DNA from: Thermoproteota archaeon
Lineage (GTDB): Archaea > Thermoproteota > Thermoprotei_A > Sulfolobales > Ignicoccaceae
Length of the DNA stretch: 36,731 bases
Direction of reading: 5' to 3'
Assembly: GCA_013154085.1 (NCBI GenBank)
Contig: JAADDE010000035.1
Location: forward strand, 1-36,731
A model generated the notes under the pieces. It saw only the letters and a list, made by a program, of their open reading frames with translations. It was not told the DNA's origin and made no database searches. Both the position numbers and the translations under genes were made by a program. Each line of letters starts with the position of its first letter. The first letter of the stretch is position 1. Of this stretch, positions 372 to 6,828 are shown piece by piece.

Positions 372-434
372 TCCGAACCCTCACGAAAGTGCCGTTCGGA
401 TCACCTAAAATGGAGCGTATTACCTCGCGCGAAG

Positions 435-444
435 CTTTTATTAA
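435..444 (+). promoter_or_regulatory. TATA box of the small hydrophobic protein gene
   Basis: The A/T-rich CTTTTATTAA lies in an otherwise G/C-rich gap. Its centre at about 439 predicts a transcript start near 465, which leaves a short leader holding the purine-rich GAGAGGTGGAG just before the ATG at 481. Confidence 0.6.
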
Positions 445-480
445 GAGTGGCTCTCTAGGTTGAACCGAGAGGTGGAGAAG

Positions 481-717
481 ATGAGGAGGAGCAGGTTGTT
501 GACTGTCGGCGGCATCGGCTACATGGCCGTACTGGCTATTGCCGCCTTCATGATAGCCATGGGTGCGGCCGGCCTTCTCGTAAAGGTGCTGGCCGCCGCC
601 GGCGCGCTGCCTCCTAACATCGCCGAGGCCGCCAAGGTCTTGCCGGGCCTCGGTGCGAGCGTGACCGCCGACCCGGTCGCCGGCCAGCTGAGCAGCATCT
701 CCGTCTCCACTAAGTAA
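481..717 (+). CDS. Small hydrophobic secreted or membrane protein, candidate Ignicoccus-type outer-membrane pore protein
   Basis: The product has 78 residues from the ATG at 481, chosen because GAGGTGG sits about 6 nt upstream. A basic N-terminus (MRRSR) precedes a hydrophobic helix at about residues 14-40. An Ala/Gly/Val-rich segment and a polar Ser/Thr C-terminus ending in Lys follow. There is no cysteine and almost no charge in the body. The gene has its own TATA box and T-run terminator, as expected for a strongly expressed single gene. Summing residue masses by hand gives about 7.6 kDa for the precursor and about 6.2 kDa if the first 13 residues are removed after GGIG. From memory, the main outer-membrane protein of Ignicoccus hospitalis (Imp1227/Ihomp1) is a 6.23-kDa alpha-helical pore former without homologues. 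The link is a hypothesis; I cannot compare the sequences. Otherwise it is an unknown small membrane protein. Confidence 0.7.
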   Translation: MRRSRLLTVGGIGYMAVLAIAAFMIAMGAAGLLVKVLAAAGALPPNIAEAAKVLPGLGASVTADPVAGQLSSISVSTK

Positions 718-737
718 AGGGCTTGAAACACCCGTCG

Positions 738-743
738 TTTTTT
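738..743 (+). terminator. Oligo-T terminator after the small hydrophobic protein gene
   Basis: A run of six T lies 21 nt after the stop codon and before the next promoter, the usual archaeal intrinsic terminator form. Confidence 0.55.
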
Positions 744-2120: not shown

Positions 2121-2312
2121 GTGGTGAAGTACTGTCCCCGATGCGGCGCGCCCATGGAGCTCAACATAGAAAAGTCCGTGTCCCACGATGGAAGCATAAG
2201 GTTCAACTACTTCTACCGTTGCAAGGGATGCGGCTTCAGGCTGGACGACGCGATACTTGTGATGAAAAGGGTGGAGGGCGGCTACCAAGCAACGGCGGTG
2301 GAGCTCGGTTAG
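2121..2312 (+). CDS. Small zinc-ribbon protein
   Basis: The 63-residue protein carries two CxxC knuckles: CPRCG at residues 5-9 and CKGCG near 37-41. This is one treble-clef or ribbon zinc site. The start is the GTG at 2121, preceded by GAGGTGAT at good spacing. It lies 11 nt after aIF2-beta, so it is probably co-transcribed, and a nucleic-acid or translation role is a guess from context. The specific family is not recognised. Its last 4 nt overlap the end of the convergent permease gene. Confidence 0.75.
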   Translation: MVKYCPRCGAPMELNIEKSVSHDGSIRFNYFYRCKGCGFRLDDAILVMKRVEGGYQATAVELG

Positions 2313-4624
2313 CCCTCTTCCTTAACCGCTTCCGCAGTCCCCACTCTCCGGAACCACACGCTGTCGAGCAACGCCAGCAAGGGTACAGACAGCAGAGGGA
2401 GGAGGAAAATATTCCAGTCTATTACTATCCTCTTTATCAAGTAAATCTGCGACAGCACGGAAATGCCTACGATGCTCAAAGAATAGCTCAGCAGAGGCGT
2501 GAGCACGCTTGCCAGCAACGCCACCAAGCCCCACCTAACGAACGACGCCACGTAGTAGTCTAGAGACGTTGCCCCGAGAGCCTTCAAAATTGCGAGCAAC
2601 TTGCTCTTGATGACAACATCGCTGAATGTAAAGGTAAGTAAGGCAAGAATTATTATGGAGAAGTTGATAAGAGTTGTAAGAGTAACGGACGTTGCGACGA
2701 AGTTTATATTCATCTTTAAGTTGTTCTTAAAGCTCTCCCAAGTAGTAGAGCCGGCAGCATAAGCGTTGCCGATGAGGATTCCTTGCAGTTCCTTCGCCGC
2801 CAGCACTTGGTCGTCTGCCGTCGCATATACCGTGAAGACGTTGTACTCCTTCTTCGGGAGGAGCTCTTTCGGCAACATGATCGACGGAGGGAACGCCGGA
2901 TCTGCCATTATGCCGCTCACTCTCACGTCGTATGTCCACGTCCCTTCCTTTGCTGTCACGATTAACCGCACTGTGTCGTTTACCTTAATATTCATGATAT
3001 TAGACAGCAAGTCGCTGACCGCTATTTCAAGCCCCTTTGGCCTTCTGCCTTGAAGGATCTTGGGGCCGACGTCAGCGCACGAGCCCTTGAGCGCTTCAAC
3101 GCAGGAGGTCGCGAACACGCTCATCTTGCGTCCGTCTTTCTCTATTGTTGCCTTAAAGTTCACCGAACCGTACAAGTTTTCGATCCACAGGCTGAGAGAC
3201 TTTGTGTGGTTGGACTCCTTGAGTTGCTCCAAGACGAATGGCACTGGGGGGCTTATCCTCGGTATCCTCAAGAATGTGACGCTGACATCGAAGCTCTTTG
3301 GGTACTCTAGGGTTTTCAAGCTTTCTCCTAATATGAGCGGGACAACAATTAAGCTCAAGGACAGCGAAAGCAGAACCAGCGCAGCCGACGCCCTCCAGAG
3401 GACGCTGCGAATTTCCGAAAGCGCTACCATGACGTTAAACGGCAAGGAGCTTTCTACCTTCAACTTGATTCTTATTCCATAGAACCGGAGGGCCTCTACT
3501 ACGTTCATGCGCGAAATAACAAGCATGGAAACGGCTACTGTAAGAAGTGTAGTAAGTAAGGCAAGCATCATTATTATTAAAATGTCTGAGGCATAAAGGT
3601 TGAAGCGTACGAACCCCTTGAGGGGCTGAAGCCTGGGGTGCGACAGCGCCGCCTCGACCGCGTGAACCGCGAAGAGGTAGCCTATCACTAAGGCCAGAAC
3701 GGCGCCGACGAATATTCTGGTGCCCCAGAGGGCCAAGAGGTACTGGCCCATGTCGCGCTTGCTTGCTCCCAGCGCCCTCAGAGAGGCTACCTCGCGCACG
3801 TTCCTTTCTATGTATAGTATTGCAATCACCATTAGCACTACCGTTACGACGGACCACGAGACCGTCGAGAGGAACTGCAGAACGTTGCTCGTTTCAAGTA
3901 TTACATCTTCTCCCGGGTAGAACAGTAGGTCGTCTTTGCTGTAGAACGTCAATGCAATGAATGAATTAACCTTTTTTAAAGCATTCAAAACCCTGTCGAG
4001 CGCCTCTGATCCGTCCACGTCCTCCTTTAAGGAGACGCTGTAGACCGTGTACCCTCCGAAATCTAAGACGAGCCTCTTTCCTTCCTCTTCGTTTAAGAAG
4101 AGCACGGGCCCCGCTGGCAAGGGAAGGCCGCCCTCCGCGTAGCCGACTATAGTCTCTCGGAAGGGTTCAACGGGGCGCAGGGTTATCATGGGGTACACCT
4201 CTAAGGTCATGCCCGGCCTCAGAAACGACGAGCCCTCTCGGAGTAGCACTGCCTCTCCTTTCCTCAGCGGAGGGGCCTTGAAGCCTCCGAGGAGGGTGTC
4301 CTTCCTGTACGCGGCTTCCGTATAGCCGAGCAACAGCGGGAAAGTGCGGTTCCCGTCGCTGCCGTAAGACGGGACCACCGCGTACCCGGTGAAGTCCTCG
4401 ACCCATGCATAGGTGGAGAACAGGCGATCCACCTGGTACGGTATGTAGCCTATGACTATCACGTCGCCGTAGCTCATTCGGAGGTAGTTCCCGAAAAGGG
4501 GGAGGAGGGTGGCCCTAAGCACGCTCGCCGAAGCGTAGAGGCTTAGGGCAAAGGCCACCATTAGGGATATCGCCAGCGTCTCCAGAGCCCTCTTCCTAGC
4601 CACCTTAAGTCCTATTTTGACCAT
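2309..4624 (-). CDS. ABC transporter permease, two-module FtsX/MacB type
   Basis: The 771-residue membrane protein starts at the ATG at 4624, which overlaps the stop codon of the ATPase gene (TGATG), so the pair is translationally coupled. One helix near the N-terminus is followed by a large extracytoplasmic region, three helices, a second lone helix, a second extracytoplasmic region and three final helices. This is two tandem FtsX units in one chain. Each unit contains the hallmark cytoplasmic loop, ALGASKRD in the first and ALGATSLD in the second. Such permeases work with LolD/MacB-like ATPases in lipoprotein handling, peptide export or mechanotransmission rather than ordinary import. The substrate is unknown. 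The open frame extends 29 codons upstream, but those codons lie within the ATPase gene. Confidence 0.87.
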   Translation of the reverse strand: MVKIGLKVARKRALETLAISLMVAFALSLYASASVLRATLLPLFGNYLRMSYGDVIVIGYIPYQVDRLFSTYAWVEDFTGYAVVPSYGSDGNRTFPLLLGYTEAAYRKDTLLGGFKAPPLRKGEAVLLREGSSFLRPGMTLEVYPMITLRPVEPFRETIVGYAEGGLPLPAGPVLFLNEEEGKRLVLDFGGYTVYSVSLKEDVDGSEALDRVLNALKKVNSFIALTFYSKDDLLFYPGEDVILETSNVLQFLSTVSWSVVTVVLMVIAILYIERNVREVASLRALGASKRDMGQYLLALWGTRIFVGAVLALVIGYLFAVHAVEAALSHPRLQPLKGFVRFNLYASDILIIMMLALLTTLLTVAVSMLVISRMNVVEALRFYGIRIKLKVESSLPFNVMVALSEIRSVLWRASAALVLLSLSLSLIVVPLILGESLKTLEYPKSFDVSVTFLRIPRISPPVPFVLEQLKESNHTKSLSLWIENLYGSVNFKATIEKDGRKMSVFATSCVEALKGSCADVGPKILQGRRPKGLEIAVSDLLSNIMNIKVNDTVRLIVTAKEGTWTYDVRVSGIMADPAFPPSIMLPKELLPKKEYNVFTVYATADDQVLAAKELQGILIGNAYAAGSTTWESFKNNLKMNINFVATSVTLTTLINFSIIILALLTFTFSDVVIKSKLLAILKALGATSLDYYVASFVRWGLVALLASVLTPLLSYSLSIVGISVLSQIYLIKRIVIDWNIFLLPLLSVPLLALLDSVWFRRVGTAEAVKEEG

Positions 4625-5289
4625 CAGCACCTCAAGACACCCCGCTCCATCTGGCACACCCTGTCCGAGACAGACTTGAGCTCCTCTTCGTGTGTGCTGA
4701 CCACCACGCACTTCCCGGAGTCGGCAAGGGAGCGGAGCACGGAGGCTACTTTCGATCTGTTTTGTGGATCTAAGTTAGACACGGGCTCGTCCGCCACCAC
4801 GACCTTAGGATCGTTTGCTAAGGCCCTAGCGACTGCGACCCTCTGCTGCTCTCCGCCGGAGAGCTCAGCCGGGTACCGGTCGGCCTTATCAGCCAAGTCC
4901 ATTAGCTGAAGTAGCGACCTAGCCCTCCTAAGCGCTCTGTCCCGCGGAACGCCGTTGAGCTCCATTGGCAACAATATGTTTTCCAGCGCCGTCAAAGTTG
5001 GAATCAGCTGGACGTTCTGGAATACTATTCCTACGTTCTTCCTCCTCCACTTAGCCCTCCACTCTTCGCTCTTCCTTATCCTGGTTCCCATGTGGTATAC
5101 CGATCCCTTATCTGGGTAATCTATGGTTGACACGACGTTCAAGAGCGTGCTCTTGCCGGCTCCCGACGGACCGACTACGGCCACCAGTTCTCCTTCCCTT
5201 ACCTCTAGGCTTACCCCCTTCAGGACGACTATTCTTTTGTTGCCCAACTTGTAGGACTTCCACACGTTTGTCAGCTCTATGCACGTCAC
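4624..5289 (-). CDS. ABC transporter ATP-binding protein, LolD/MacB-like
   Basis: A complete 221-residue ATPase: Walker A GPSGAGKST at 40-48, Q-loop near 91, signature LSGGEQQR at 143-150, Walker B VVVADEP at 163-169, D-loop after it and switch histidine near 200. Length and motif form match the LolD/FtsE/MacB class that pairs with FtsX-type permeases, and the permease gene follows directly. It would power that permease from the cytoplasmic face. The GTG at 5289 lies about 9 nt after the predicted transcript start, so translation may be near-leaderless. Confidence 0.93.
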   Translation of the reverse strand: MTCIELTNVWKSYKLGNKRIVVLKGVSLEVREGELVAVVGPSGAGKSTLLNVVSTIDYPDKGSVYHMGTRIRKSEEWRAKWRRKNVGIVFQNVQLIPTLTALENILLPMELNGVPRDRALRRARSLLQLMDLADKADRYPAELSGGEQQRVAVARALANDPKVVVADEPVSNLDPQNRSKVASVLRSLADSGKCVVVSTHEEELKSVSDRVCQMERGVLRC

Positions 5290-5332: not shown

Positions 5333-6229
5333 TCAAAGCCCTTCCGACCCTTCGGTCATCCTCCGGAGGTCCGGGGAAGGGGTCCACCCCTCGACGGCGT
5401 CGTAGTATATGAGGCCGTCCTCGCGGAGGGCCTCGAAGAGCTTGAAGAGCCTCTCGTCCTCCAGCGCCTCAGCCACCTCATCCTCGGTGCCGCCGGCCTC
5501 CCTGAGCCGCTCCCAGAACTCCTCCCAAGCCTCGGGGTGCACCACTATCCTCCCGCGCCGCGTGGTTTCGATCACCACTGCCCCGCTCCTCCGGAGCTTC
5601 TCAATGAGCTTGTCGACGTTTCTCGCGAAGGACATGTCTTCCTCAAAGTTCACCTTTCTTTCCTTAAGCACATCAATGGCCGTCTTCCTCTGCTTCTTTT
5701 CTTGCCGCCTCTCAGGCCTCTGCGGCTCCGCTCTGGGGAGCTCCGGCTCTGGACGCTCAGCCTTCTCCTTCTTCACCGCCGACTCCAGCTCCTCAAGCCT
5801 TTCCATGATCTCGCCCAGCTGTCTGTGGAGCGCATCCACCTTCTGGCTCCATGGATTTATCATGTCCACTATTTTCCTTTCCACCTTCTTCGTAACCTCG
5901 TCAACTATTTTATTTACCAACTCTTTCGTGTCGACGTCTCCCAGCTGAACGTTTTGGAGCGCTTCCTCAATGAGCTTCCACACCGCCTCTTGGAGGGCGG
6001 GCGGAAGCTCTCCCTTCTCTATGCGCTCGATCCGCGCCTCCAAAGCCCTTGGGTTGAAAGGCGTCCTCTCTAACTCCCTCGAGAGGACCTCCAAGACGTA
6101 CTCGCTGACCAGCGAGTACCCTTCCTCCTCTGCCCTCTTCTTTAGCTCATCATAGAAGTCATCGCTGATCTTCAATATTACGTGCTTCGCCAAACCTCGG
6201 ACCCAAGCGTTATGGTCCCCTGCCCGCAT
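5333..6229 (-). CDS. Uncharacterised protein: ribbon-helix-helix-like N-terminus, coiled coil, helical C-terminus
   Basis: The product has 298 residues from the ATG at 6229, or 286 from the TTG at 6193. The N-terminus (AKHVILKISDDFYDELKKRA) resembles a CopG/MetJ-like strand-helix-helix. A long, highly charged helical region with heptad-like spacing follows (MERLEELESAV), then a Pro/Glu/Arg-rich hinge and a C-terminal basic helical domain with VVIETTRRGRIVVHPEAWEE. It has no signal peptide or membrane helix. A DNA-binding or scaffold role is possible; I do not recognise a named family. It diverges from the UPF0179 gene with only 19 nt between the chosen starts. Confidence 0.7.
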   Translation of the reverse strand: MRAGDHNAWVRGLAKHVILKISDDFYDELKKRAEEEGYSLVSEYVLEVLSRELERTPFNPRALEARIERIEKGELPPALQEAVWKLIEEALQNVQLGDVDTKELVNKIVDEVTKKVERKIVDMINPWSQKVDALHRQLGEIMERLEELESAVKKEKAERPEPELPRAEPQRPERRQEKKQRKTAIDVLKERKVNFEEDMSFARNVDKLIEKLRRSGAVVIETTRRGRIVVHPEAWEEFWERLREAGGTEDEVAEALEDERLFKLFEALREDGLIYYDAVEGWTPSPDLRRMTEGSEGL

Positions 6230-6730: not shown

Positions 6731-6828
6731 GGCCCCGTAGCTCAGCTAGGACAGAGCGCCGGCCTCCTATCCGGTGCGGGGTTTGGGAAAGCCGGTGGTC
6801 CGGGGTTCAAATCCCCGCGGGGCCGCCA
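6731..6828 (+). tRNA. tRNA-Arg(CCU) with a 20-nt intron at 37/38
   Basis: The acceptor stem GGCCCCG/CGGGGCC (7 bp), D arm GCTC/GAGC, anticodon stem CCGGC/GCCGG and T arm CGGGG-TTCAAAT-CCCCG all pair, and the CCA is encoded (6826-6828). The anticodon CCT is at 6766-6768, reading AGG. An insertion at 6770-6789 separates position 37 (A6769) from position 38 (A6790), the usual archaeal intron site. Bases 33-36 can pair with GGGA at 6785-6788, which would form the central helix of a relaxed bulge-helix-bulge for the splicing endonuclease. The end of a PAP2 gene overlaps it on the other strand. Confidence 0.95.

Follow-up and report, generated by a model that had tools for sequence, protein, structure and literature searches.

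Among archaea with an energised outer membrane, Ignicoccus is the best known. Bacterial outer-membrane porins are beta-barrels of several hundred residues; the Ignicoccus protein resembles them in forming pores and in its abundance in an outer membrane, whereas proteins of its type are helical, about 68 residues long, and without sequence relation to porins. Published accounts of the I. hospitalis protein, Ihomp1 (formerly Imp1227), describe it as helical, with a mass of 6.23 kDa, and as assembling into nine-subunit complexes that have 2-nm pores; they recognise no homologue of it in other archaea (PMC5468417, PMC3544247, PMC3422733). For Iho_1266, Giannone et al. 2011 (PMC3149612) give 85 aa and the name "Outer membrane pore protein", the outer membrane pore being built by oligomerisation of Iho1266.

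The stretch of DNA analysed here, 36,731 nucleotides long and referred to as the window, is contig 47 in a draft genome of 1.18 Mb that is 82% complete. It carries a short gene (Table 1) that is very probably orthologous to Ihomp1 (Imp1227, Igni_1266), the protein that dominates the outer cellular membrane in Ignicoccus.

Table 1. Positions of the pore gene, its signals and other genes in the window.
Feature	Position	Strand	Basis
GTATTAC upstream promoter element	417..423	+	invariant in 4 Ignicoccus genomes
BRE/TATA region GAAGCTTTTATTA	431..443	+	position and sequence conserved in 4 genomes
TATA-like sequence CTTTTATTA	435..443	+	
Shine-Dalgarno GAGGTG	469..474	+	6 nt before ATG; in 4/4 genomes, spacer 6-8 nt
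Coding sequence, very probable Ihomp1 (Igni_1266) orthologue, 78 aa	481..717, stop included	+	68% identity, gene order, pN/pS 0.46
Basic leader, residues 1-10 (predicted)	481..510	+	predicted removal after invariant Gly10, from the I. hospitalis mass
Hydrophobic transmembrane helix, residues ~14-40 (predicted)	520..600	+	hydropathy, AlphaFold2; invariant Gly28 and Gly31
Short amphipathic helix, residues ~44-63 (predicted)	610..669	+	highest hydrophobic moments; AlphaFold2, low confidence
T6 transcription stop signal	738..743	+	T6-T7 run in 4/4 genomes
FtsX-type ABC permease (773 aa)	2309..5289	-	PF02687
286-residue charged, coiled-coil-like protein	5333..6193	-	
tRNA gene	6731..6828	+	57 bits to Rfam tRNA

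The gene and its relatives

The predicted product, MRRSRLLTVGGIGYMAVLAIAAFMIAMGAAGLLVKVLAAAGALPPNIAEAAKVLPGLGASVTADPVAGQLSSISVSTK, contains no cysteine and has five charged residues after residue 13; its hydropathy profile shows one strongly hydrophobic stretch, the 19-residue maximum falling on residues 16-34. A preliminary description of this DNA had proposed a hydrophobic, Cys-free product of 78 residues with a basic N-terminus, and both that portrait and the coordinates it gave (435-743) are exact. Two antisense reading frames of 156 and 135 aa overlap the gene, and on their account one might suppose that the frame arose by chance and that the real gene is one of those opposite; overlapping antisense frames are common in GC-rich DNA. 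Since four Ignicoccus genomes carry the protein, TATA box, Shine-Dalgarno sequence and T-run at one and the same location, and since substitutions between the window and I. hospitalis genes are biased toward synonymous sites, the frame is not a chance one. The pN/pS of 0.46 shows constraint on the protein despite its fast change, the start is conserved along with the promoter, and the I. hospitalis product has been detected and is abundant (PMC3149612). The four-species comparison refutes the chance reading, to which we give practically no credence.

When the window protein was used as query against the genomes of the genus, three other genomes each gave a single, full-length relative. The best was that of I. 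hospitalis (G002:C1:1128184-1128414; 68% identity over 77 residues, E 1.2e-25). Genome G003 has its relative at 48-49% identity (E 1.7e-16), and the most distant member is a 77-residue ORF in G001 at 32-34% identity (E 0.015). This ORF is flanked by counterparts of I. hospitalis genes 1265, 1267, 1268, 1269, 1270 and 1271, as in the other genomes, and because it shares this neighbourhood together with the TATA box, Shine-Dalgarno sequence and T-run, we take it to be an orthologue. A second tblastn match in G001 lies in a stop-containing stretch and was rejected. No match came from G004, the remaining fifth genome; with 56% completeness, and with the neighbouring transketolase gene missing too, this absence is uninformative. 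The preliminary description had pointed to other Ignicoccus genomes as the place to search, and orthologues are found in three of them besides the window genome; in 4/4 Ignicoccus genomes the gene is flanked, in unchanged order, by genes 1265, 1267, 1268 and 1269.

A profile built from the four members found nothing convincing in 214 genomes of the order (210 others) or 398 of the phylum (approximately 395 outside the genus), matches beyond the genus being weak and lying inside longer frames or across stops. Scans of the genome_contigs and viral_contigs collections, which may leave out near genomes, likewise returned no relatives; no family in Pfam or NCBIfam matches the protein, and a search of solved structures gave a chance match (E 0.83). 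The family thus appears to be confined to the genus Ignicoccus, yet it is present in all four genomes that could be assessed. It also diverges faster than the genes next to it. Between the window and I. hospitalis the pore protein is 68% identical, the adjacent transketolase 85% and eIF2-beta 93%; between G001 and I. hospitalis the neighbours are 71 and 78% identical, and the G001 and window pore proteins share 32-34%. Residues conserved throughout are Gly10, Gly28, Gly31, Gly41, Pro55, Ala59-Ser60 and Pro65.

The link to the published protein was made by calling genes on positions 1,080,001-1,180,000 of the I. hospitalis chromosome, which is 1,297,538 bp long (PMC2614490), and numbering them with Iho_1254 as anchor. 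This numbering recovers Iho_1243 (182 aa) and Iho_1254 (233 aa), Iho_1248 as the 3-isopropylmalate dehydratase small subunit, and Iho_1258/1259 as pyruvate:ferredoxin oxidoreductase alpha/beta, all as tabulated in PMC3149612. By these five landmarks the orthologue is gene 1266, and the longest ORF there, from a GTG, is exactly 85 codons. It is equated with Ihomp1 through the number and length that Giannone et al. 2011 (PMC3149612) give for the gene, and the window gene is shown to be its orthologue by its sequence and gene order as well as by promoter, ribosome-binding site and length. The earlier proposal of an Ignicoccus-type outer-membrane pore protein therefore gains support from an I. hospitalis orthologue that is Iho_1266, with 85 codons and the same neighbours. 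The two proteins agree in length within one residue and in promoter anatomy; the window protein carries one extra C-terminal Lys. The I. hospitalis sequence, predicted to begin MRRSRLLTLGGIGYTAVIALAALV and expected to equal Ihomp1, is MRRSRLLTLGGIGYTAVIALAALVLVMGALGLVLKVAAAAGALPSEVAKVANALPGLKASVDANPAAGSLSSVSVST.

Other genes lie close by. An FtsX-type ABC permease accompanied by a LolD/FtsE-like ATPase is found near the pore gene in 4/4 Ignicoccus genomes; beyond the genus, relatives of the permease are only weak, at 23% identity. By analogy with bacterial LolCDE, this permease could serve outer-membrane traffic; another gene, Igni479, is the one published as LolE candidate for I. hospitalis. 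The 286-residue protein has a ribbon-helix-helix-looking start, matches nothing in Pfam or NCBIfam, and is conserved in 4/4 Ignicoccus genomes at 41-68% identity. The tRNA gene has an anticodon that ARAGORN did not read, and it probably contains an intron.

Promoter, translation start and transcription stop

In the aligned upstream regions of the four genomes the heptamer GTATTAC stands 18-19 nt 5' of the TATA box and 64-68 nt 5' of the ATG. GTATTAC followed at that spacing by CTTT(T)ATTA occurs exactly once per genome in 4/4 genomes, always at this gene, and the reversed pattern, searched as a control, has no match in the four genomes. The element belongs to the pore gene, since its distance to the TATA box is steady and that to the divergent neighbour gene variable. 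We suggest that it may be the site of a dedicated activator driving the reported high expression.

The TATA box and Shine-Dalgarno sequence that the preliminary description assigned to this gene are both present. Its claim of a separate terminator stands in part: the T-run is there, lying in 4/4 genomes 20-31 nt past the first base of the stop codon, and a search for a stem-loop terminator after the window gene found none. T-run terminators without a stem-loop are normal for archaea.

In I. hospitalis the annotated 85-residue form has GTG as its first codon; in the window that codon would be a TTG. By the usual archaeal spacing from the TATA box, transcription would begin near these upstream codons or past them. 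Given this position, the in-frame stop just 5' of the ATG in G003, and the Shine-Dalgarno sequence 6-8 nt before the ATG in 4/4 genomes, the true precursor is most likely of 77-78 residues, and translation of the window gene probably begins at the Met codon at position 481 rather than at the upstream annotated start. For Igni_1266 itself (L002 1477-1734) the annotated GTG start (85 aa) is probably eight codons early, the ATG with a Shine-Dalgarno sequence giving 77 aa.

Predicted leader removal and the mature protein

The preliminary description had noted by hand sum that loss of the first 13 residues, after GGIG, leaves about 6.2 kDa, in agreement with the 6.23 kDa known for Ihomp1. The arithmetic was right (6221.4 Da), but it does not transfer to I. 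hospitalis, where the same cut gives 6002.0 Da, and we reject the agreement as coincidence. Among N-terminal cuts of the I. hospitalis protein just one yields 6.23 kDa; it falls three residues earlier, after Gly10 (LTLG|GIGY), and leaves 6229.3 Da, a match to a mass rounded to 10 Da that some cut would attain by chance about one time in ten. Gly10 is invariant in the four species, and a cut there leaves 67-68 residues in each. The basic leader is probably removed at this point, with a predicted mature mass of 6449 Da for the window protein (6448.7 Da) as against 6229 Da for I. hospitalis.

Class III signal-peptide (prepilin-like) proteins, such as the Iho670 fibre protein of I. hospitalis, likewise have a hydrophobic N-terminal helix immediately preceded by a short basic leader, and a matching A24 prepilin-type peptidase gene is present once in each of the four Ignicoccus genomes, that of I. 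hospitalis being named PibD (Igni1405). One might accordingly suppose that this family has nothing to do with the pore and that its product, given a class III leader, is a small subunit of the inner membrane or of a pilin-like fibre. Class III leaders usually carry a charged residue before the Gly, Ala or Ser at the cut; here Gly10 is invariant and the hydrophobic helix present, but the position ahead of it holds Leu, Val or Ile, which sets the leader apart from standard class III peptides. No pilin family matches the protein, and what is reported for Ihomp1 is a pore in a membrane rather than a fibre, the I. hospitalis orthologue itself being named a pore protein (PMC3149612). A pilin-like subunit is therefore a most unlikely identity for this gene. 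As for the Ihomp1 proteins themselves, one can picture them maturing along a prepilin-type route, with the A24 peptidase (PibD) cutting after Gly10 and the pore an offshoot of pilin-like proteins under a private promoter, but we put this forward as a tentative and somewhat doubtful idea.

Proposed assembly of the pore in the outer membrane

Hydropathy and the AlphaFold2 model, in which a helix of moderate confidence spans residues 4-39, indicate a helical membrane protein. The pLDDT is approximately 80-88 over residues 11-40, and two further helices, 45-53 and 55-63, are of low confidence; the monomer model as a whole is weak (mean pLDDT 69, pTM 0.38), supporting the helices only and silent on the ring.

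By analogy with I. hospitalis, the product would be exported and inserted in the outer cellular membrane, its long helix of about 25 residues crossing that membrane, and each copy would join about eight others around a central pore of approximately 2 nm. The four-species comparison suggests that removal of the basic leader after Gly10 would leave a hydrophobic N-terminal helix, that the invariant glycines may pack such helices into a ring, and that the amphipathic segment and the Ser/Thr-rich tail may line, cap or shape the pore. Pore function in the window species is thus carried over from the I. hospitalis work, and the protein might belong to the family and yet have no open-pore role, serving for example in a structural lattice in the outer membrane. 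The fast divergence of the family (68, 48 and 34% identity) would suit such a part, as would the report of ATP synthase in the same membrane, since open 2-nm pores are difficult to reconcile with it. Nevertheless the family has kept its length and hydrophobicity profile, its invariant glycines and prolines and its gene context unchanged, and we consider a lattice role unlikely and retain the pore as the preferred reading.

A protein of this kind was already known. What is new here is its probable start site, a probable processing site, the residues that have been kept, and a promoter element private to the gene, all brought out by comparing four orthologues, one of them only 34% identical, of a protein that had been described as lacking recognisable homologues in other archaea. 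With these in hand, how a one-helix protein assembles into a 2-nm pore can be tested directly, and the comparison bears on how pores and ATP synthase coexist in one membrane.
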